Below, in pieces: positions 16,463 to 56,600 of a stretch of DNA of 64,000 nucleotides (position 1 is the first letter of the stretch; each line of letters starts with the position of its first letter). The notes beneath the pieces are model-generated. The model was not told the DNA's origin. It worked only from the letters and a program-made list of their open reading frames with translations, and searched no databases. The DNA is from Opitutus sp. (lineage in GTDB: Bacteria > Verrucomicrobiota > Verrucomicrobiia > Opitutales > Opitutaceae). The stretch is from positions 372,001-436,000 of the forward strand of contig JACEUQ010000001.1 of the NCBI GenBank assembly GCA_024998815.1, in the 5' to 3' direction. Made by a program: the position numbers and the translations under genes.

Positions 16463-16766
16463 CTGGCTGGACCACCGGCTGGTGCGGGGCAATTACCTGG
16501 GGCGGGCCAGTGCCCCCGCCTGGGGCCTCTATCTGGTCCTGGTCACCGTGGGCGACGCCGACGGGCTGAGTTACTACGCCACGCGCACCCTGGCCCGGCT
16601 GCTCACGCTCAGCGAGGACGGCCTGGTCGAGGCGCGCCGGCAGTTAATCGAGGCCGGGGTGATCGCCTACGCCGCGCCACTTTACCAGGTGCTCTCCTTG
16701 GACCGGGGCAGGCCAACGCACACGCTGGCGGCAACGCCGCCGCCGAGCCGGGAGGTGGGCGCGTGA
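16407..16766 (+). CDS. IS21 accessory protein 2, winged-helix-like
   Basis: 119 residues. After a hydrophobic helix (WGLYLVLVTVGDADGLSYY), the stretch TRTLARLLTLSEDGLVEARR then QLIEAGVIAYAAPLYQVLSL looks like a helix-turn-helix with a beta wing. This pattern is common in MarR/replication-initiator-like winged helices. Its stop overlaps the istA GTG start by 4 bases, and GGAGGTGG precedes istA inside it, so istA translation is probably coupled. A regulatory or target-binding role for the transposase is inferred from position only. Confidence 0.72.
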   Translation: MQKQPIDREQLRRTPAQFSWLDHRLVRGNYLGRASAPAWGLYLVLVTVGDADGLSYYATRTLARLLTLSEDGLVEARRQLIEAGVIAYAAPLYQVLSLDRGRPTHTLAATPPPSREVGA

Positions 16767-18229
16767 TCGATTACGAACTGTATTGCCGGATAAAACAGGC
16801 GGAGGCGGCCGGTCACAGTGCGCCGCAAATCGCCCGCTCGCTCCAGTTGCACGTGCAGACGGTGAGGCGCTGGCAGGCGCAGGAAAAGTACGTGCGCAGC
16901 CAGGCCGCGCAGGTGCCTAGGCCAAGCAAGCTCGACGTGCACAAGCCGGCGATCGCGCGCTGGCTGGAGGCCCATCCGTTCACCGCCATGCAGCTCTGGC
17001 AAAAGGTGCGCGAGCGGGGGTACACGGGCGGGTATTCAATTTTGAAAGACTACGTGCGGCGGGTGCGGCCGAGGAACCTGGAGGCGTTTCTTACCCTCAA
17101 GTTTGCCCCCGGCCAGACCGCGCAGGTGGACTGGGGCAGTTTTGGCGCGGTGGAGGTGGACGGCACCCGGCGGGCTTTAAGTTTTTTCGTCATGGTTTTG
17201 GGGTACAGCCGGTTCCTGCATGTGGAATTTACCCTCGGGCAGGGCCAGGAGTGGTGGCTGGGCTGTCACCGGCGCGCCTTTGAAAAACTCGGCGGGGTGC
17301 CGCGCGAGGTGATGGTGGACAACTGCAAGACGGCCGTCCTCTCGCATGTGCCCGGGACCGACCCGGTGTACAACGCCCAGTACCTGGACTTTGCCCGGCA
17401 CTACGGGTTTACGATAAAAGCGTGCGGGCCGGGGCATCCGCAGTCCAAGGGCATGGTGGAAAACGCGGTGGGTTACGTGAAAAAAAGCTTCCTTGGCGGG
17501 CGGCAGATGAACGGGTTTACCGAGCTGGGGCCGGCCGCCAGCTTGTGGCTGGAAACGGTGGCCAACGTGCGCGTTCACGCTGAAACCCAGGGCCGGCCGG
17601 TGGACCGGCTGCCCGAGGAGCGCGCTGCGCTCCTGCCGCTTAACCCGGTGGCCAGTCCGGCGGTGCGCACCTTAAGCGTGCGGGCGTCGCGGCGGTGCCG
17701 GGTGAGTATCGAAACGAACCGCTACTCGGTGCCCACGAAGTTTGCCGGGGCGCTACTCACCGCGCAGATCGAGGGGGCGCAGGTGAGGTTTTATGCGGAC
17801 CGCACCCTGGTGGCCGAGCATGCCCGCAGTTTTGCCCGCCGCGCCGATGTGGAAAACCCCGAGCATGTGCGCGAACTCGAGGAGCGCAAACGGCAGGGGG
17901 CGCGGCAGCGCCTGCGGCTACGGTTTTTGGAACTGAGCCCGGCGGCACCCGCCTACCAACGGGGGCTGGAGGAGCGCCGGCTCAACGCGGGACACCACCT
18001 GGCGACTATCGTGGGTTTGGTGGCCCTGTATGGAACGGAGGCAGTCGGCCGGGCGATCGAAAGCGCCCATGAACTCGGCGCCTACTCCAGCGATTACATC
18101 CTCAACTTGCTCGAACAACGCGCGCGGGCCTTGCCGCAAGCCGGGCCGATCCACCTCACCCGCGCCGACGCGTTGGCCGCACTGGAACTCGAACTGCGTC
18201 CCCCGGATTTAAGCCCCTATACCCAATGA
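16763..18229 (+). CDS. istA: IS21-family transposase
   Basis: 488 residues from a GTG start with a good ribosome-binding site (GGAGGTGG at 16751). The N-terminal helix-turn-helix (HSAPQIARSLQLHVQTVRRW) binds the element ends. The rve/RNase H-fold core shows the catalytic triad: Asp in AQVDWGSFG (about residue 118), Asp in EVMVDNCKT (about 180) and Glu in SKGMVENAVGYVKK (about 232). The C-terminal half has the usual RYSVP segment. It acts with IstB, whose start overlaps its stop (ATGA). Confidence 0.95.
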   Translation: MIDYELYCRIKQAEAAGHSAPQIARSLQLHVQTVRRWQAQEKYVRSQAAQVPRPSKLDVHKPAIARWLEAHPFTAMQLWQKVRERGYTGGYSILKDYVRRVRPRNLEAFLTLKFAPGQTAQVDWGSFGAVEVDGTRRALSFFVMVLGYSRFLHVEFTLGQGQEWWLGCHRRAFEKLGGVPREVMVDNCKTAVLSHVPGTDPVYNAQYLDFARHYGFTIKACGPGHPQSKGMVENAVGYVKKSFLGGRQMNGFTELGPAASLWLETVANVRVHAETQGRPVDRLPEERAALLPLNPVASPAVRTLSVRASRRCRVSIETNRYSVPTKFAGALLTAQIEGAQVRFYADRTLVAEHARSFARRADVENPEHVRELEERKRQGARQRLRLRFLELSPAAPAYQRGLEERRLNAGHHLATIVGLVALYGTEAVGRAIESAHELGAYSSDYILNLLEQRARALPQAGPIHLTRADALAALELELRPPDLSPYTQ

Positions 18230-18993
18230 AAACAGAACCCGAAAAAACCGATTTATTAAAAGATCAACTCAAGTACCTGAAACTCGGTTACCTGCTGCGC
18301 CACCACGGCGAACTCACGGCCGAGGCGGCCAAGGCGCGCTGTTCGCACGCCGAATTTTTACGCCGACTGGTGCAGGCCGAGACCCAGGACCGCCAGATCC
18401 GGGCGCTGGAGCGGCGCATCCAGGCAGCGCGCTTCCCGGTCAAGAAAACCGTCGACCAGTTCCAGTGGGACTGGCCCAAGGAGTTGAACGAAGCGCAGGT
18501 GCGGCACCTCTTCGAACTGGGCTTTGTCAAGGAGCGCACCAACGCGGTGTTTTGCGGTGGTGTGGGGCTTGGGAAGACACATCTCGCGAGCGCGTTGGGC
18601 TACGCGGCGTGCCAGGCGGGCTACACGGTGCTGTTTACGACGGCGGTGGACGCGATCAACGCTTTGGTCACCGCCCAGTCCCTGCACCGGTTGCAAGCCG
18701 AGTTGAAGCGTTACATGACCCCTGCGGTGCTCGTGCTCGATGAGGTCGGCTACCTGCCGCTCGACAAGTCGGGGGCCGACCTGCTCTTCCAGATCGTCAG
18801 CCAACGCTACGAACGCGGCTCGCTGATCGTCACCACCAACAAGGCCTACAAACACTGGGCAGGGATCTTTAACAACGACGCTGGCATCACCGCGGCGATC
18901 CTGGACCGCCTACTGCACCGGGCCCAGACCGTCGTCATCGAGGGCAAATCCTACCGCATGAAAGACCGCCTGGCCGACGAACCTGCAAGCTGA
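18226..18993 (+). CDS. istB: IS21 transposition helper ATPase
   Basis: 255-residue AAA+ protein related to DnaC. It carries a Walker A in FCGGVGLGKTHLASALGY (about residue 110), a Walker B in LVLDEVGYLPLD (about 170) and a sensor-like SLIVTTNKAYKHW. Family members assemble on target DNA as ATP-dependent oligomers and stimulate IstA. The start ATG overlaps the istA stop by 4 bases. The protein is full length. Confidence 0.95.
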   Translation: MKTEPEKTDLLKDQLKYLKLGYLLRHHGELTAEAAKARCSHAEFLRRLVQAETQDRQIRALERRIQAARFPVKKTVDQFQWDWPKELNEAQVRHLFELGFVKERTNAVFCGGVGLGKTHLASALGYAACQAGYTVLFTTAVDAINALVTAQSLHRLQAELKRYMTPAVLVLDEVGYLPLDKSGADLLFQIVSQRYERGSLIVTTNKAYKHWAGIFNNDAGITAAILDRLLHRAQTVVIEGKSYRMKDRLADEPAS

Positions 18994-48774: not shown

Positions 48775-49260
48775 TTAATCGGCGGACAACTGGGCGGGCA
48801 CGACAGTGGCCTCGATGTCCGCTTCGCGGATACGCACGAGGGTGAGCCCGTTGGGGCGGCGGATCAGGGTGTCGCACCAGGTGTGGTCGTCGTAGCTGTA
48901 ACGGATCTGCACGCCGAGCAGCAGGCCGGCGGCCAGGCGGGTGCGGGCGGTTTCCAGCGAAATGGTTTCGGCCCCGGTGTGGCGGCGGTCGGTGTATTTG
49001 GGGATGACCGCGTGGATGCGGGTGCAGGCTCCGAGGTCGCGAAACAGCGCGTCGGTGGTGGCCACGTCGAGCAGGGTCTGCTGGAGCGGGGGCAGCCGCA
49101 GGGGCTCGGATGAAGACGTGGCGGCGGTGGCTGTGGCGGGGGTGGTCATGGGCGGGGGGGCGAACGAAGTGGTGGACTGCGGAGTGTCGGCGCCGCGCTC
49201 GCGTAGTGAGGCCGGTAGCAGGCGGCTCAAAAATTCGCGGCGATTGAGGGCGGCGGACAT
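48775..49260 (-). CDS. unknown nap-operon protein with Tat-like N-terminus
   Basis: 161 residues. I do not recognise it. The N-terminus MSAALNRREFLSRLLPASLR has an R-R-x-F-L twin-arginine core, but the hydrophobic stretch that should follow is short, so export is uncertain. After a Thr/Pro-rich linker, the C-terminal ~100 residues are a compact domain (LFRDLGACTRIHAVIPKYTD, GVQIRYSYDDHTWCDTLIRR). Co-direction and position directly after napB suggest a role in nitrate reductase maturation or electron transfer. Confidence 0.6.
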   Translation of the reverse strand: MSAALNRREFLSRLLPASLRERGADTPQSTTSFAPPPMTTPATATAATSSSEPLRLPPLQQTLLDVATTDALFRDLGACTRIHAVIPKYTDRRHTGAETISLETARTRLAAGLLLGVQIRYSYDDHTWCDTLIRRPNGLTLVRIREADIEATVVPAQLSAD

Positions 49261-49369: not shown

Positions 49370-50197
49370 TTAGGGCGTGGGTTGGGTGTCGCGGGTGGCG
49401 TCGAGGGCGTGGCATTGCAGGCAATTTTGGCGCTGCGGATGGCTGGTTTTAAAGGCGCTCGAGCCTCCGGGTGCGTGGCAACTGAGGCAGTTTTCTCGCA
49501 TGGCCCTGGAGTGGGGCAGGGTTGGCGGCGCGCCCGCGAAGGCCCGGGTGCCGCCGCGTGGCGCGGGTTGGCCGACAAAGTTGTTGGCCAAAACCGGCGT
49601 GGCCAGCGCGGCGGGCGGAGCGGCCAGCGCAGGACCGGGGCCGCCGGAGGGCGCGTGGCACTGGATGCAGTTGGTGTAGGCCTGATGGCTGATCTGCGGG
49701 ACGTCGATTTTGCCGATCCGCGTAGGCTGGCCGTGGCAGGCGAGGCAGGAGGTGGAGGCGTGCTGGTCGATGGGATGCGGGACGGTGGGCGGGGCGCCTG
49801 CGAAGGCGCGGCGCGATTCGCGGCGGGCGATCAGGGCGGTTAACTCTTCTGGGCTGAGCGGTGCGCTGGAACCGGTGTAGGCGGGGGCGGGCGGCAGTTG
49901 CGCCAGTTCGCTTTTCCAGAAGGCGTTGGGCTGCCGGGAGCGGTCGCGCATCTCCGCGTAGTTTGGGGCTGCGGGAGTGGCGTCGGGCGAAGGGGACGGT
50001 TTTAAGTTTGAGGTTTGTGTTTCACTGCCGGCGTTACGGCGGAGTTCGGCCGCGCGGTCGGTCTGGCGCAGGCCCATAAAATAGCCGCTCAGGCCGGTGG
50101 TGAAGGCCACCACGGCGGCGACGACCGCGAGCTTGCGACCGAGCGAGGGAAGGGGGGACTTGGGTGTATCCGGTTTCACAGGTGTGGGCGTGAACAC
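49370..50197 (-). CDS. napB: four-haem NapB-like cytochrome c subunit of nitrate reductase
   Basis: 275 residues from a GTG that directly follows the napA stop. An N-terminal anchor (LAVVAAVVAFTTGLSGYFMG) is followed by four CXXCH motifs: CLACH, CIQCH, CLSCH and CLQCH. Usual NapB is dihaem. Here the motif RRAFAGAPPTVPHP ... CLACH ... CIQCH is repeated as TRAFAGAPPTLPHS ... CLSCH ... CLQCH, so the protein looks like an internal duplication of the NapB core. It receives electrons in the periplasm and passes them to NapA. Confidence 0.87.
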   Translation of the reverse strand: MFTPTPVKPDTPKSPLPSLGRKLAVVAAVVAFTTGLSGYFMGLRQTDRAAELRRNAGSETQTSNLKPSPSPDATPAAPNYAEMRDRSRQPNAFWKSELAQLPPAPAYTGSSAPLSPEELTALIARRESRRAFAGAPPTVPHPIDQHASTSCLACHGQPTRIGKIDVPQISHQAYTNCIQCHAPSGGPGPALAAPPAALATPVLANNFVGQPAPRGGTRAFAGAPPTLPHSRAMRENCLSCHAPGGSSAFKTSHPQRQNCLQCHALDATRDTQPTP

Positions 50198-52609
50198 TTA
50201 GGCGCGGCGCAGGATGCGCACGGCACACTTTTTGTAGTCGGGCTCTTTGGAGAGCGGGTCGACCGCACCCAGCGTGATGTTATTGATCAGGAAATTCTGA
50301 TCGAAAAACGGCACGAAGACCGAGCCGCGCGGGGGGGAGCTGCGGCCGTTGAGCCAGACCGGCAACTCCAAGCGCCCGCGGCGGGTTTCCAATATGGCTA
50401 CGTCGCCGTTGGCCAGTCCGGCCGCCGCCGCGTCGGCGGGGTTGAGTTCGACGTAGGCGTTGGGCATCGACCCGCGCAACTGGGGCACGCGCATCGTCAT
50501 CGTGCCGCTGTGCCAGTGCTCGATCACGCGACCGGTGCAGAGCCAGAACGGGTAATCGTTATCCGGCTCCTCGGCGGCCGGTTCGTAGGGGTTGAACCAG
50601 ATCAGCGCCCGGTCGTCCTTGGTCACCGAGTGGTAGAACTGGATGCCCGCGCCCTTTTTGACGAACGGGTCGCTGAATTCCATGAAGCGGAAGCGGGTTT
50701 CCTTAAACGTGCCGTCGGCCTGCTCGACCACCGGCCAGCGCAGGCCGCGGGCTTTGACCAACTCGTCGTAGGGGGCGAGGTGCTTGTGTTTGTGGTAACT
50801 GAAGCGCCGATACTCCTCAAACAGGGCGCGGTCGGTGTTCATGTCGTAGTAGTGGGCGAAATCCCAGGCGGGCACCTCCAGGCCGGCGTCATTTTTGAAG
50901 GTGAAGATAAACTTCCCGTCCTTGTCCTTCATGCCGGGGTGGCCGAGTTCGAACAGGCGGCGGGCGAGGGCGAGCGTCATCCAGGCGTCGGGGCGGGCCT
51001 GGCACGGGGGCTCGACCTGCTTGAACCACTGCTGGGTGCGGCGCTCGGAATTGCCCACGATGCCGTTCTTTTCGACCCAGAGGGCGGCGGGTAAAATGAG
51101 GTCGGCCAGCGCGGTGGTCGCGGTGGGATAGACGTCGGAGACGATGAGGAACTTGTCGGCGAGATTGGCTTTTCCGTTAAAGGTGCGGGCGAGGTCGGGC
51201 AGGGTCTGGCCGGGGTTGGTGACCTGGACAAAAATGGTGTGGATGTCGCCGCCCTTGTCGGTGGGGGTGCAGAAGTTTTCCCAGAGTTGCACCGTGTGGT
51301 AGCCGGGCTTGGGGTTGATGCGGCCGGCAGGCACATGCCAAAGCTCCTCGCACTCGGCGCGGTGCTCGGGATTGGCAACGAGCAGGCCGCCGGGCAGGGC
51401 GTGACACAGGGTGCCGACCTCGCGGGCGGTGCCGCAGGCCGAGGGTTGGCCGGTGAGCGAGGTGGGCGCGTCGCCGGGGCGGCCCCAGTGGCCGGAGAGC
51501 AGGTGGATGCCGTGGACGAGGCGGTTGATGGCGGTACCGCGGGTGTGCTGGTTCATGCCCATGCACCACAGGCTGGTGATGCGCAGGTCGCGGCGGCCGA
51601 AGAGGTCGCCCAGCAGGCGTATTTTTTCCTCGGGCACGCCGGAGAGTTTTGCCACGTAGGCCGGGGTGTAGAGGGCGAGCGCCTCGCGGTAAGCCGCAAA
51701 GGTCATCGGCTGGCCGTTGAGCGAGACCGGCGCGGTGTCCTGGCGGAAGTTACAGTGTTTTTCCACGAACTCCTGGTTCCAGGTTCCGTTGGCCAGCAGC
51801 AGGTGGGCGATGCCGTTGGCGATGGCTAGGTCGGTCTGGGGGCGGAATTCGAGGTAATGGTCCGCGTATTCGGTGGTGCGGGTGCGGCGCGTGCCCATGT
51901 CGATGAGCATGACCTTCTCGCCGCGGGTGCGCCGGTCGATGATTCTAGAAAACAGCACCGGGTGCATCTCGGCCGGGTTGTTGCCCCACAGGATGCCCAC
52001 GTCGGCGGCGTCCAGGTCGTCGTAACAGCCGGCCGGCTCGTCCACGCCGTAAACCGAGAGGTAGCCGGTCACCGCGGAGGCCATACACAGGCGGGCGTTG
52101 GGCTCGAGGTGGTTGTTGGCCAGACCGGCCTTCATGAACTTCTGCGCCGCGTAACCCTCGGGGATGGTCCATTGCCCGCTGCCGTAGAAGCCGAATCCGG
52201 CGGGGTTTTTCATCACGCGCTTGGCCACGATGTCGATGGCCTCCTCCCAGGTAATGTCTTCGAGTCGCCCGTTGCGGCGCAGCTGCGGGGTGGTGAGCCG
52301 GTCTTTGCCGTAAAGAATGCCGCCGACATGGTAACCCTTCATGCAGAGCAGGCCCTTGTTCACCTCGGCCAGCGGATCGCCTTGAATGGCGACGACGCGT
52401 CCGTCTTTGACGCCCACGCGAACGTGGCAGCCGGTACCGCAGAACCGGCAGGGCGCTTTGTCCCAACGCACGCCGTCCGCCGTGACCGTCGTCGATGGCG
52501 AGGTGGCGAAGGTCGGCTCCCCAGGGGCGGGTGCCGCGCCGAGGCGGCGGGCGATCACGGCGGTGGCGGCGGCGAGGGCGGTGGTGCGGAGGAATTCGCG
52601 GCGGTGCAT
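50198..52609 (-). CDS. napA: periplasmic nitrate reductase catalytic subunit
   Basis: 803 residues from MHRREFLRTTALAAATAVIA, a twin-arginine signal. The mature N-terminus binds one 4Fe-4S cluster (CRFCGTGCHV ... NKGLLCMKGYH). The Mo-bis-MGD-binding fold follows, with ARLCMASAVTGYLSVYG supplying the Cys ligand typical of NapA. LWCMGMNQHTRGTAINRLVH and a C-terminal molybdopterin domain (HWHSGTMTMRVPQLRG) complete it. Reduces nitrate to nitrite in the periplasm. The 77-bp gap before its start contains an 11-C run on its coding strand. Confidence 0.96.
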   Translation of the reverse strand: MHRREFLRTTALAAATAVIARRLGAAPAPGEPTFATSPSTTVTADGVRWDKAPCRFCGTGCHVRVGVKDGRVVAIQGDPLAEVNKGLLCMKGYHVGGILYGKDRLTTPQLRRNGRLEDITWEEAIDIVAKRVMKNPAGFGFYGSGQWTIPEGYAAQKFMKAGLANNHLEPNARLCMASAVTGYLSVYGVDEPAGCYDDLDAADVGILWGNNPAEMHPVLFSRIIDRRTRGEKVMLIDMGTRRTRTTEYADHYLEFRPQTDLAIANGIAHLLLANGTWNQEFVEKHCNFRQDTAPVSLNGQPMTFAAYREALALYTPAYVAKLSGVPEEKIRLLGDLFGRRDLRITSLWCMGMNQHTRGTAINRLVHGIHLLSGHWGRPGDAPTSLTGQPSACGTAREVGTLCHALPGGLLVANPEHRAECEELWHVPAGRINPKPGYHTVQLWENFCTPTDKGGDIHTIFVQVTNPGQTLPDLARTFNGKANLADKFLIVSDVYPTATTALADLILPAALWVEKNGIVGNSERRTQQWFKQVEPPCQARPDAWMTLALARRLFELGHPGMKDKDGKFIFTFKNDAGLEVPAWDFAHYYDMNTDRALFEEYRRFSYHKHKHLAPYDELVKARGLRWPVVEQADGTFKETRFRFMEFSDPFVKKGAGIQFYHSVTKDDRALIWFNPYEPAAEEPDNDYPFWLCTGRVIEHWHSGTMTMRVPQLRGSMPNAYVELNPADAAAAGLANGDVAILETRRGRLELPVWLNGRSSPPRGSVFVPFFDQNFLINNITLGAVDPLSKEPDYKKCAVRILRRA

Positions 52610-52686
52610 GTTTTTTTTAATTAAAGCGGGTAATTGGCCCAAGGGGGGGGGGGCGGAGCGGCCGGCGGTTTTTGGCGGCGGTGGGC

Positions 52687-52941
52687 TTAGGCGGCGGTGG
52701 GCAGTTCGACAAAAACCACCTCGACCAACTCGACGCCGGGTATCGCTTCAAGATCGCGGAAGGCCCCGTAGGCGTCCTCGGCACTGAGTACCGCCGGCAG
52801 CCACGGGCCGCGAAGTTCGCCCAGTTCCAGCGCCGCATACTGCGAGAGTTGGCGGAGCGCGCTCACCCGCAGTTCGGGTAAACCACTGAGGGTGATGATG
52901 AGTGAACTCAGGCCGGGCGCGGGCGTTTCAGTGGCATCCAT
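52687..52941 (-). CDS. napD: NapD chaperone for the NapA Tat signal
   Basis: 84 residues from MDATETPAPGLSSLIITLSG; a longer in-frame start is possible but adds an unlikely basic tail. The ferredoxin-like fold pattern (SLIITLSG, then PELRVSALRQLSQ, ending GVELVEVVFVEL) is that of NapD. NapD binds the NapA signal peptide until cofactor insertion is complete. It heads the minus-strand nap run and is divergent from the cytochrome c gene with 92 bp between. Confidence 0.88.
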   Translation of the reverse strand: MDATETPAPGLSSLIITLSGLPELRVSALRQLSQYAALELGELRGPWLPAVLSAEDAYGAFRDLEAIPGVELVEVVFVELPTAA

Positions 52942-53033
52942 AGGACAAACGTGGGCGCGCGAATAGATCATATCAAGAAAAAAAGACAATCTAGTCTTGA
53001 AAATGTGCCGACGCTGTGCCTTTCTTGGGGGCA

Positions 53034-53768
53034 ATGAAGCGTCGTTTGATCCTTTCTCCGGTGGTTTGGGCCCTGGTGCTCGCAGCGGCAGGCGGGCAGT
53101 GGCTGTTGGGTCAGGCCAGACCGCCGCAGCCGGGAGCTAAAGAGCCTCATCCCTCGTCGTCCCTGATCGCTGCCACGCAATCGACCTCCTCCGACCCTTC
53201 CGGGGCAGCTCCCGCCAAGGGCACCGTTCCGCCTGCGTCCGTGCCGTCGCACCAACCGGCGGGTTATCAGCCGAAGGTGGCCGTCACCGGAGCGGTCGAT
53301 CACCACGGCCAGGCGGTCGGGGTGGCCTGCATGACCTGCCACACGTCCAAAACGCCCAACCTCGGTGCCGGCGCGGGTGGGGCGGTGCCGGCGGAGTTTC
53401 ACCAGGGACTCGTTTACGCTCACGGCGGGCAGAGCTGCCTGAGTTGCCACCACAGCCAGGATTACGACGCGCTGCGGCTCGCCGATGGCCGCAAGCTCGC
53501 CTTCGCCGACGCGCAAAAACTTTGCCAACAGTGCCACGGTCCGCAGGCCCGCGATTACCTCAACGGTGCCCACGGCGGCATGGCCGGCTACTGGGATAAA
53601 ACCAAGGGCGCGCGCACCCGCAACACCTGCACCGACTGCCACGATCCGCACGCGCCCAAATACCCGCAATGGACCCCGGTTTTTGCCCCCAAAGACGACG
53701 GTGCGCTTCAGCAAAAAGCCCGCGACGCCCAGTCGCACCCGGCCGCGCACGCTCCCCATTCAAACTAG
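53034..53768 (+). CDS. tetrahaem periplasmic cytochrome c
   Basis: 244 residues from the ATG giving MKRRLILSPVVWALVLA, a signal/anchor; a GTG six codons upstream is less likely. Four CXXCH sites are visible: CMTCHTS, CLSCHHS, CQQCHGP and CTDCHDP. The spacing and the AHGGMAGYWDKTKG segment resemble NrfB/DmsE-like small multihaem proteins. With the following NrfC- and NrfD-like genes it probably forms a quinol-to-cytochrome electron branch that could feed NapB. Confidence 0.88.
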   Translation: MKRRLILSPVVWALVLAAAGGQWLLGQARPPQPGAKEPHPSSSLIAATQSTSSDPSGAAPAKGTVPPASVPSHQPAGYQPKVAVTGAVDHHGQAVGVACMTCHTSKTPNLGAGAGGAVPAEFHQGLVYAHGGQSCLSCHHSQDYDALRLADGRKLAFADAQKLCQQCHGPQARDYLNGAHGGMAGYWDKTKGARTRNTCTDCHDPHAPKYPQWTPVFAPKDDGALQQKARDAQSHPAAHAPHSN

Positions 53769-53778
53769 GACCGCCCCC

Positions 53779-54789
53779 ATGAGTAACTCCTCGCCCACTG
53801 ATCCCTCCTCCGACGCCAACGCCGGCTCCGAACATCGCTGCAGTGGCAATTCCGAAGCCTGCGGTTGTGGCGGCAGCAGCGGCGGCGGTGTCGGCATGAA
53901 CCGCCGCACCGCCCTCAAAGCCATCGGCGCGACCCTCGGCGCGGCGGCCTTCGCCCAAGCGATCGCCCCGCTCACCCAGTGGACCGAAGACCTCACGATC
54001 GACGATTATCTGCAAAAGCACTACAAGGAGCTCTCCCCCTTCGATCTCGGCGTGGTCATGGCGCGCATGGAGAAGGAAACCAAGGAGGCGACCGGGGTCG
54101 ACGTGCACATCGGCGACTACCGCCCGCAGCCCGGCGTGAAATTCGGTTACGCGCTCAACCTGTCGGTCTGCGTGGGTTGCCGCCGCTGCGCCAAGGCCTG
54201 CCATGTGGAGAACAACCACGACCGGCCCTCGGGCAACAGTTACATTCGCGTGCTGGAGATGCAAAAGGGCTCGCTCGATCTCGCCAAGGGGCGGGTCAAC
54301 TACGACCACGCCGTGCCCGATGCGGAAAAGTTCTACATGCCCGTGCAGTGTCAGCAGTGCGACAAGCCGCCCTGCGTCTCGGTTTGCCCGGTCGAGGCGA
54401 CATGGAAAGAGGCCGACGGGATTGTGGTGGTGGATTACAACTGGTGCATCGGTTGCCGTTATTGCGAGGCGGCCTGCCCCTACCATGCGCGGCGGTTTAA
54501 CTGGAAAAAGCCCGAGGTGCCCGCAGCCGAGATCAACCCCGACCAAGGCTACCTGTCCAACCGCCTGCGGCCCCAAGGCGTGATGGAGAAATGCACCTTC
54601 TGCCTGCACCGTTCCCGCCAGGGTAAACTGCCCGCCTGCCTCGAAGCCTGCCCGACCGGCGCGCGGGTGTTTGGCAACCTGCTCGATCCCGAGTCGGAGA
54701 TCCGCTGGGTGCTGAAAAATAAACGTGTCTTTGTCCTCAAGGAGGACGTCGGCACCCAACCCAGTTTTTTTTACTTCTTCGATGTCTAA
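53779..54789 (+). CDS. NrfC-like 4Fe-4S ferredoxin subunit
   Basis: 336 residues; start MSNSSPTDPSSDANAGSEHR placed 10 bases after the cytochrome. A Cys/Gly-rich patch (CSGNSEACGCGGSSGGG) precedes the Tat-like RRTALKAIGATLGAAAFA. Four cluster-binding Cys groups follow: CVGCRRCAKACHV, CQQCDKPPCVSVCP, CIGCRYCEAACPYH and CTFCLHR with CLEACP. This is the four-cluster pattern of NrfC, PsrB and TtrB. It would sit on the periplasmic side and pass electrons between NrfD and the cytochrome. It overlaps the next gene by 8 bases. Confidence 0.92.
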   Translation: MSNSSPTDPSSDANAGSEHRCSGNSEACGCGGSSGGGVGMNRRTALKAIGATLGAAAFAQAIAPLTQWTEDLTIDDYLQKHYKELSPFDLGVVMARMEKETKEATGVDVHIGDYRPQPGVKFGYALNLSVCVGCRRCAKACHVENNHDRPSGNSYIRVLEMQKGSLDLAKGRVNYDHAVPDAEKFYMPVQCQQCDKPPCVSVCPVEATWKEADGIVVVDYNWCIGCRYCEAACPYHARRFNWKKPEVPAAEINPDQGYLSNRLRPQGVMEKCTFCLHRSRQGKLPACLEACPTGARVFGNLLDPESEIRWVLKNKRVFVLKEDVGTQPSFFYFFDV

Positions 54790-56092
54790 TCCCTCCTCCG
54801 GCCCCGAAACGCAGGCCCGCGCCCTCGCTCCGAGCGCGCCCGCTGTTGTCCCTGCGCACTGCCCCCACACCCTCGCGTTTCATGCCACCAGCTACCGCCG
54901 CTTCCTCTGGAAAGTGGTCTGCGACGCCACCGACGGCTCGGCCTGGTTTTACGCGTGGATGATCCTGCTCACCGCGTTCGCCCTGACCGGCCTGCACGCC
55001 TGGGCGGTGCAGGTGCGCGACGGTTTGGTCGTCACCGGTCTGAGCGACCACGTGTCCTGGGGCCTGTATATCGCCAACTTCACCTTCATGGTCGGTCTGG
55101 CGGCGGGCGGGGTGATGATGGTCATCCCGGCGTACCTTTACCATGACCACGAGATGCACGACCTCACCATTGTAGGCGAATTGTTGGCCGTGGCCGCGAT
55201 TGTGATGAGCATCTGTTTTGTCGTCGTGGACATGGGCCGCCCCGAGCGGTTTTGGCACATGTTTCCCGTCGTCGGCCGGTTTAATTTCCCCGTCTCGATG
55301 CTCACCTGGGACGTGCTGGTGCTCAACGGCTACCTCGGGCTCAACCTGCACATCTGCGGCTACCTGCTTTATATGCGCTTCCGCGGCGAGCGGCCCAATC
55401 CCAGGTGGTATGTCCCGTTTGTCTACCTCTCGATTTTTTGGGCCATCTCGATTCACACCGTAACCGCCTTCCTCTATTCCGGATTGGGCGGGCGACCGCT
55501 GTGGAATACCGCGCTGCTGGCGCCGCGATTTTTGGTGACGGCGTTCATCGCTGGGCCGGCCTTTATCATCGTGCTACTGTTTGCGCTGCGGCGCTTCGGC
55601 GGCATGCGGCTGACGGAGCGGCCGGTGCAGGTGTTGGTCAACATCGTGCGCGTTACCCTGTTGATTAATCTGCTGATGGTGGCCTCGGAGCTGTTCACCG
55701 ACCTGTATTCGGGCGGGGCGCACACCGCCTCGGTGCACTATTTGTTTTTCGGCCTGCACGGGGCGAACGCCTTGGTTCCGTGGATTTGGAGTGCGGTAGC
55801 CATGGGGCTGGCTTCAGCGGTGATGTTCCTGCGTCCCGGCGTGGTCGGGCATCCCGTTTGGTTGACGCTGGCCTGCGTCCTGGCGTTTGTGGGGATTTGG
55901 ATCGAGAAAGGCATGGGCCTGATCGTGCCGGCCTTCATCCCCTCCACGCTGCACGAGATTGTGGAATATTTTCCTAGTCTGGTGGAGTGGCAGGTCATGG
56001 CCGGCATCTGGGCCTGGGGGCTGCTGATTCTGACGGTGATGCTCAAAATCGCCCTGCCGATCCTGCGCCAGCCGCATCCAGTTGTACCTTAA
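54782..56092 (+). CDS. NrfD/PsrC-like integral membrane quinol dehydrogenase subunit
   Basis: 436 residues with about ten hydrophobic helices (first from AWFYAWMILLTAFALTGL, then WGLYIANFTFMVGLAAGGVM). DMGRPERFWHMFP between early helices and WGLYIANF match the NrfD family. Its long soluble N-terminus (about 50 residues) is unusual but has no recognisable domain. The family oxidises menaquinol on the membrane. With the upstream ferredoxin and cytochrome it makes a plausible replacement for NapC. Confidence 0.92.
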   Translation: MSNPSSGPETQARALAPSAPAVVPAHCPHTLAFHATSYRRFLWKVVCDATDGSAWFYAWMILLTAFALTGLHAWAVQVRDGLVVTGLSDHVSWGLYIANFTFMVGLAAGGVMMVIPAYLYHDHEMHDLTIVGELLAVAAIVMSICFVVVDMGRPERFWHMFPVVGRFNFPVSMLTWDVLVLNGYLGLNLHICGYLLYMRFRGERPNPRWYVPFVYLSIFWAISIHTVTAFLYSGLGGRPLWNTALLAPRFLVTAFIAGPAFIIVLLFALRRFGGMRLTERPVQVLVNIVRVTLLINLLMVASELFTDLYSGGAHTASVHYLFFGLHGANALVPWIWSAVAMGLASAVMFLRPGVVGHPVWLTLACVLAFVGIWIEKGMGLIVPAFIPSTLHEIVEYFPSLVEWQVMAGIWAWGLLILTVMLKIALPILRQPHPVVP

Positions 56093-56171: not shown

Positions 56172-56600
56172 ATGATTCGTTTTGGTAAAACTGCGCAGAC
56201 TGCCATTGCCGCGATGAGCTTGCTCGCCGAGGTCTACGACGGTGGCAAAACCAAGCTCAGCTCGCAGGAAATCGCCGAGCGCCGTGGGTTGCCCCAGCCG
56301 GTGGTGGCCAAGGTACTGACGATCTTGTCCTCGCTCGGTTTGGTGGATGGCACCCGCGGCCCAGGCGGCGGCTACTGGCTAAAACGTACCCCAGACAAGA
56401 TTTCGCTTTTGGATATCGTCGAGGAATTTGAGCGCAGTGATGCGCAGATTATGTGTCCGTTTGGGCCGAACTGGTGCGGCCATGGCGCGCCCTGTCCGAT
56501 GCATGATTCTCTGCTGCGCATGGACCAGCAGTGGATGACCTACATGCGTGAAACCACGTTGAGCGTGTTTTATCAAAAAGCCGCCAAAAGCGTCGGCTGA
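56172..56600 (+). CDS. Rrf2-family regulator with a cysteine cluster
   Basis: 142 residues. The winged helix (MIRFGKTAQTAIAAMSLLAE ... LSSQEIAERRGLPQPVVAKV) is followed by GLVDGTRGPGGGYWLKR, the family wing. A C-terminal cluster site CPFGPNWCGHGAPCPMH has C-x6-C-x5-C plus His, close to the Fe-S sites of IscR and NsrR. It probably senses NO, O2 or Fe-S status and may control the divergent nap genes. It lies 79 bp past the NrfD-like gene. Confidence 0.87.
   Translation: MIRFGKTAQTAIAAMSLLAEVYDGGKTKLSSQEIAERRGLPQPVVAKVLTILSSLGLVDGTRGPGGGYWLKRTPDKISLLDIVEEFERSDAQIMCPFGPNWCGHGAPCPMHDSLLRMDQQWMTYMRETTLSVFYQKAAKSVG

Follow-up and report, generated by a model that had tools for sequence, protein, structure and literature searches.

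A periplasmic nitrate reductase (Nap) island with what is probably its own DsrOP-type quinol dehydrogenase was found in a 64,000-nt stretch of an Opitutus sp. genome (assembly GCA_024998815.1, contig JACEUQ010000001.1, positions 372,001-436,000 of the forward strand; hereafter the window). As judged from sequence, electrons would run from menaquinol through a DsrP-like protein, a DsrO-like protein and a tetrahaem cytochrome to NapB and on to NapA. A first-pass annotation of window positions 50,198-56,092, a section that starts at napA so that napB falls outside it, had proposed an alternative route from quinol to NapB in place of NapC or NapGH. Co-occurrence of the genes in three phyla and a shared putative regulatory site support such a route, while the NrfCD label given to the quinol module did not hold and the module type proved not to be specific to nap. 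The assembly comprises 4.24 Mb in 3 contigs and is 99.9% complete; its closest named relatives are Opitutaceae metagenome-assembled genomes (MAGs) of the Verrucomicrobiota.

The island consists of napD, napA, napB and a gene for a 161-amino-acid protein on the minus strand, diverging from cytochrome, iron-sulfur (Fe-S) protein, NrfD-family and Rrf2 genes on the plus strand across a short shared intergenic region. Gene calls, family models and haem motifs agree with the divergent arrangement described in the first-pass annotation. Its description of the divergent cytochrome as tetrahaem was confirmed by counting CxxCH motifs, and, as it had also stated, no napC, napG, napH or napE was seen in the neighbourhood. 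Molybdenum-cofactor genes, assigned by reading translations, lie directly downstream on the minus strand. The features of the island are as follows:

48775..49260, minus strand: uncharacterised nap-associated protein of 161 amino acids, without a match in Pfam or NCBIfam, a neighbour of nap in more than half of the islands
49370..50197, minus strand: napB, tetrahaem, two tandem NapB dihaem units behind a predicted N-terminal membrane helix (four CxxCH; Pfam NapB)
50198..52609, minus strand: napA, probable periplasmic nitrate reductase catalytic subunit, 803 amino acids (NapA models; position in the NapA tree)
52687..52941, minus strand: napD, maturation chaperone, 84 amino acids (family profile against E. 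coli NapD, 2jsx)
52973..53000, no strand: palindrome TCAAGA-N16-TCTTGA, exact match, putative Rrf2 operator between the divergent operons
53034..53768, plus strand: small tetrahaem c-type cytochrome that would carry electrons from the DsrO-like protein to NapB (four CxxCH; its gene recurs in nap-linked modules across three phyla)
53779..54789, plus strand: periplasmic protein resembling DsrO, with motifs for four [4Fe-4S] clusters and a twin-arginine signal (DsrO score near the cut-off)
54782..56092, plus strand: DsrP-like membrane protein of the NrfD family, which would oxidise menaquinol (DsrP and Pfam NrfD models; quinone-site residues)
56172..56600, plus strand: Rrf2-family protein with a cluster of three cysteines, which probably regulates both operons (Rrf2 superfamily score)

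The NrfD-family protein scored above the cut-offs of both DsrP (411.8 bits against 350) and Pfam NrfD (127.7 against 25.8), and the Fe-S protein narrowly missed that of DsrO (185.2 bits, cut-off 200). The earlier designation of the pair as NrfC-like and NrfD-like was rejected, since NrfC gave 126.8 bits against a cut-off of 377.6 and the DsrO and DsrP models fit far better. The identification of the cytochrome as pentahaem NrfB was likewise discarded (four haems; 19.7 bits, cut-off 184), as was that of the membrane protein as QrcD (42.3 bits, cut-off 570). A full DsrMKJOP complex was also rejected: no gene for DsrJ, DsrM or DsrK stands beside the module, DsrK is absent genome-wide (DsrM was not searched for separately), and the four-haem cytochrome has no DsrJ match. 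A complete DsrMKJOP set with 5/5 subunits above their cut-offs does occur in the window's Verrucomicrobiota family (L047:5478-10605, G060), where DsrM, DsrK and a true trihaem DsrJ (109, cut-off 100) accompany the real DsrOP. At loci L043, L044, L045 and L046 (G283, G160, G155 and G060), the DsrP-like proteins carry an insert of ~150 residues close to what is position 273 in the protein of the window.

A 2021 review of NrfD-like subunits lists as key positions an acid or His in transmembrane helix 2 (His139 of ActC, Asp106 of D. vulgaris DsrP), a pocket serine (Ser164 of ActC), Asp169 of ActC, and mid-membrane Arg395 of ActC, where D. vulgaris DsrP has lysine (PMC8076601). The window protein has D150, S172, D177 and K376 at these positions, as matched by alignment to ActC and not by a structure, and all four are invariant in 7/7 aligned nap-linked proteins. 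The invariance of these quinone-site and gate residues supports quinol chemistry and a DsrP-like gate.

NapA was surveyed over whole phyla (387 genomes of Verrucomicrobiota, 343 of Planctomycetota and 195 of Myxococcota), the module not being a selection criterion; thresholds were E 1e-150 or 1e-120, and more divergent NapA proteins are therefore uncounted. The co-occurrence with nap that the first-pass annotation had suggested testing was found in all three phyla. Among the Verrucomicrobiota, NapA occurred in 7/387 genomes and the module lay directly beside nap in 7/7, with a match to the window's NrfD-family protein in only 20/387 (association with NapA, Fisher test, 3e-10). Planctomycete nap loci had the module in 33 of 49 cases, Rieske and cytochrome b genes with an octahaem cytochrome in 9, and were otherwise arranged or cut off in 7. 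Myxococcota have 28 nap loci; where NapA was at least 65% identical to that of the window, the module and a four-haem NapB were present without exception (13/13), whereas the classical long NapA (39-40% identity) came with a dihaem NapB wherever this was countable and with the module at one locus only (L272). Classical NapA with dihaem NapB almost never has the module.

The association was equally apparent from the side of the membrane protein. Among the 80 closest DsrP-like relatives in a species-level genome collection, napA (59-76% identity) was located within at most 9 kb in 68, and in the other 12 the contig ends at the expected napA. Of the NapA proteins at least 57% identical to that of the window, 93/95 had the module. 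In a NapA tree of 128 rows the window fell into a clade of 92 rows (support 100), 90 of them with the module; the remaining two, L230 and L236, end at contig edges. Related genomes are non-independent samples, and such counts therefore exaggerate how many events occurred. The module is also present in two NapA groups further away in the tree (L039-L041 with L217; L238-L240), which implies either repeated pairing of the module with Nap or its loss in between.

The best-matching families of NapA are both NapA families, with scores slightly below the curated cut-offs (865 bits, cut-off 904; 838 bits, cut-off 930.55), and napD and napB adjoin. NapD is too divergent to give a match in a Pfam search of the sequence alone; a profile of its family matched E. 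coli NapD structures (2jsx, E 2.7e-7). NapB was recognised by Pfam NapB (35.0 bits, cut-off 25.1) and has four CxxCH motifs, not the two of dihaem NapB, a feature unmentioned in the first-pass annotation. These motifs and four further His residues are all invariant in 30 relatives, and four-haem NapB was present at 89 of the 91 countable loci among those with the 95 NapA sequences mentioned above. The two halves of the protein matched each other with 99.6% probability and classical dihaem NapB with 98.5% and 97.2%, compared to at most 2.1% for column-shuffled controls, which indicates that this NapB consists of two NapB units in tandem. An N-terminal helix was predicted with high confidence in a structure model that is too weak beyond it (mean predicted local distance difference test score, pLDDT, 66); NapB probably carries a membrane anchor at its N-terminus. 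Homologues of the 161-amino-acid protein, with the conserved motif VQIRYxxxGxxWWDTLM, occur in most nap islands. Its model is a confident small alpha/beta structure, and a fold search of solved structures returned no clear match, showing neither a new nor a known fold.

The putative regulator reached 88 bits with the Rrf2 superfamily model (cut-off 73.3). Of the islands listed, 16 keep this gene behind the module, the copies retaining the three clustered cysteines, and 18 such islands entered a survey of the palindrome. The intergenic region of the window contains TCAAGA-N16-TCTTGA without a mismatch. Allowing up to 2 mismatches, the palindrome occurred between nap and the cytochrome gene in 13/18 islands with the Rrf2 gene and in 5/52 without (p 1e-6, an optimistic value, since the pattern came from inspecting these same regions and related rows are non-independent). 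Its density was 0.30 per kb inside compared to 0.015 outside, and the 16-base spacer fits 13 loci compared to 0-2 for other spacers. It is likely that a single redox- or nitric oxide-sensing Rrf2 regulator acts on both divergent operons at this putative operator. Such joint regulation would link the module to nap by a line of evidence other than gene order.

We then considered other possible donors. The genome encodes a single NapC/NirT-family protein, and since its neighbour is a pentahaem NrfA, we concluded that it is NrfH. Neither a dedicated NapC nor a napC adjoining napA was found in the genome, and the best genome-wide NapH match had 20.7 bits (cut-off 213.05), with none above the cut-off; a NapC or NapGH hidden elsewhere, which, if co-expressed with napA, the first-pass annotation had seen as counting against its proposal, was thus rejected. 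NapH above the cut-off was likewise found in 0/7 Verrucomicrobiota NapA genomes. In Campylobacter, a cytochrome bc route feeds Nap (PMC6195509); such a route was rejected here because the genome contains no cytochrome b.

Several observations weigh against a dedicated DsrOP-type donor. Other members of the family to which this genome belongs have modules without nap, in which the DsrP-like protein is ~53-60% identical to that of the window; most of these modules lie beside cytochromes with 7, 8, 11 or 13 haems. A NapG/F-type ferredoxin, a possible second route, is encoded in 53/93 related nap islands, although not in that of the window; one of the 93 has a NapH-like protein and two have an NrfH-like protein, and the window island has neither. 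Finally, the NrfH of this genome could in principle feed NapB. In the DsrP tree, a branch with support 99 separates nap-linked or contig-cut rows only on one side from nap-free modules, true DsrP and octahaem-linked nap sets on the other; as the root is unsafe and branches are long, only this split between nap-dedicated and mixed rows was used. The module type is therefore general, with one subclade dedicated to nap. Occurrence of the module with a different reductase, which the first-pass annotation had seen as counting against its proposal, is therefore borne out in part, by the less similar copies beside other multihaem cytochromes, but does not extend to this subclade.

The strongest competing explanation, which we consider unlikely, is that NrfH or an alternative-complex-III-like complex feeds NapB and that the module serves otherwise, for example by supplying NrfA as NrfBCD does. 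In Shewanella, members of the NapC family, CymA for example, supply several reductases with electrons, and, in addition to NrfH, a second NrfD-family complex of the ActC type is encoded elsewhere in this genome. However, NrfH adjoins nrfA and not nap, and the module tracks nap, not nrfA, over three phyla. Moreover, a NapC-family protein is absent from 3/7 Verrucomicrobiota NapA genomes (one of the three being 86% complete) and from 7/20 further nap-island genomes, for which completeness is not given. Less probable still is that NapB itself acts as a NapC-like quinol dehydrogenase with the module as an accessory. Its four haems and N-terminal membrane helix do resemble the build of NapC and NrfH, but both halves are NapB and not NapC by profile, each of the four haems has a candidate second His so that no open haem site is obvious, and the strict linkage to the module would be left unexplained. 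That the module runs in reverse, as a quinone reductase fed by periplasmic cytochromes like QrcABCD and sharing the neighbourhood through regulation only, is likewise very unlikely: the NrfD-family Qrc does operate in the quinone-reducing direction (PMC13059093), but with the high potential of nitrate, NapA is a sink of electrons and not a source, and the QrcD score given above shows no Qrc-specific fit.

We therefore favour the module as the quinol dehydrogenase of Nap. The DsrP-like protein would oxidise menaquinol on its periplasmic side, and the electrons would pass via the four clusters of the DsrO-like protein to the small tetrahaem cytochrome, which would in turn contact the probably membrane-anchored tandem NapB. 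From NapB they would reach the Fe-S cluster and then the molybdenum site of NapA, where nitrate, the presumed substrate, would be reduced to nitrite. Further reduction of nitrite to ammonium would fall to NrfHA, encoded elsewhere in the genome, and the Rrf2 regulator at the intergenic palindrome would probably control both operons jointly. Nap is usually viewed as fed by NapC or NapGH, without energy conservation at that step. We tentatively suggest, with much less assurance than for the electron route, a further nap operon class in Verrucomicrobiota, Planctomycetota and Myxococcota whose NrfD-family subunit may draw or move protons across the membrane, so that, in contrast to Nap driven by NapC or NapGH, periplasmic nitrate respiration would itself conserve energy directly. 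The NrfD-family complex Qrc takes its protons from the cytoplasm (PMC13059093).

Other arrangements were encountered during the surveys. At the planctomycete loci L216 (3607-9701), L211, L212, L213, L214, L218, L220, L221 and L222, genes for a Rieske protein, cytochrome b and an octahaem cytochrome lie immediately upstream of napA, with a four-haem napB, which suggests a cytochrome bc-type complex as the donor of Nap there. At L035, L038, L233, L234, L235, L238, L239 and L240, the module, with or without nap, has as its neighbour an octahaem cytochrome (Pfam Multi-haem_cyto), possibly a nitrite or hydroxylamine enzyme on the same feed. In the nearest named relative, an Opitutaceae MAG (L063), an NrfH-like gene and an adjoining multihaem cytochrome gene occur immediately downstream of the nap island, an arrangement that would suit reduction of nitrate to ammonium from a single locus. 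At L242:6157-11680 (G194), genes for a second molybdoenzyme, a four-CxxCH cytochrome and NapG/NapH-like proteins adjoin a module-bearing nap island, and two routes may coexist there. L228 encodes a fused NapH/NapG-like protein that scored below the cut-offs. Apart from the island, the window contains two adjoining genes at 16763-18993 on the plus strand that by reading resemble an IS21-type IstA transposase and its IstB helper.

The gene set is widespread and essentially undescribed: it has been glimpsed before, and no description was found in the open-licence literature, an earlier account in a subscription journal being possible. None of the four operon types of a 2026 Nap review (napEDABC, napDAGHB, napCMADGH and napAGHBFLD) resembles this island (PMC13223375), and the review of NrfD-like subunits covers many complexes with nitrate reductase unmentioned (PMC8076601). 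The phrase 'tetraheme NapB' or variants of it were not found in the open-licence literature. A 2025 NapA phylogeny retained only loci with model-type operons (PMC12769810); surveys restricted in this way would probably omit the loci described here, and pipelines seeking napC or napGH would miss the donor. If true, a Nap class with an NrfD-family module, spread over three phyla that are common in soil and sediment, would alter the genome-based prediction of nitrate respiration and of its energy yield. The four-haem NapB and the nap-linked 161-amino-acid protein are new, testable parts.

The closest precedent is a 2023 study of tunnel MAGs, which noted, in the planctomycete MAGs OFTM8 and OFTM33, an NrfD-type cluster downstream of Nap that might be a respiratory complex (PMC10732223). 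These correspond to our loci L066 and L074 and have the same neighbourhood as the window island; in the portion of that paper considered here, the remark is a passing one on two MAGs, without assignment of a Nap donor, a four-haem NapB or a wider survey. With the JOP half of DsrMKJOP, the module shares the gene order of cytochrome, four-cluster Fe-S protein and NrfD-family protein and a DsrP score above the cut-off, but it differs in its tetrahaem instead of trihaem cytochrome, in having no DsrJ match and neither DsrM nor DsrK at its side, in the absence of DsrK from the genome, and in its apparent coupling to Nap. E. coli NrfABCD is similar in that a periplasmic cytochrome, an Fe-S protein and an NrfD-family protein feed a periplasmic N-oxyanion reductase; here, however, the NrfC and NrfB cut-offs are not reached, the partner would be NapAB and not NrfA, and NrfA has its own NrfH. 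The island has in common with classical nap operons NapA, NapD, a NapB-family cytochrome and, as proposed, periplasmic nitrate reduction driven by the quinol pool, but in place of napC or napGH it encodes the cytochrome-DsrO-DsrP module together with a four-haem, probably membrane-anchored NapB.

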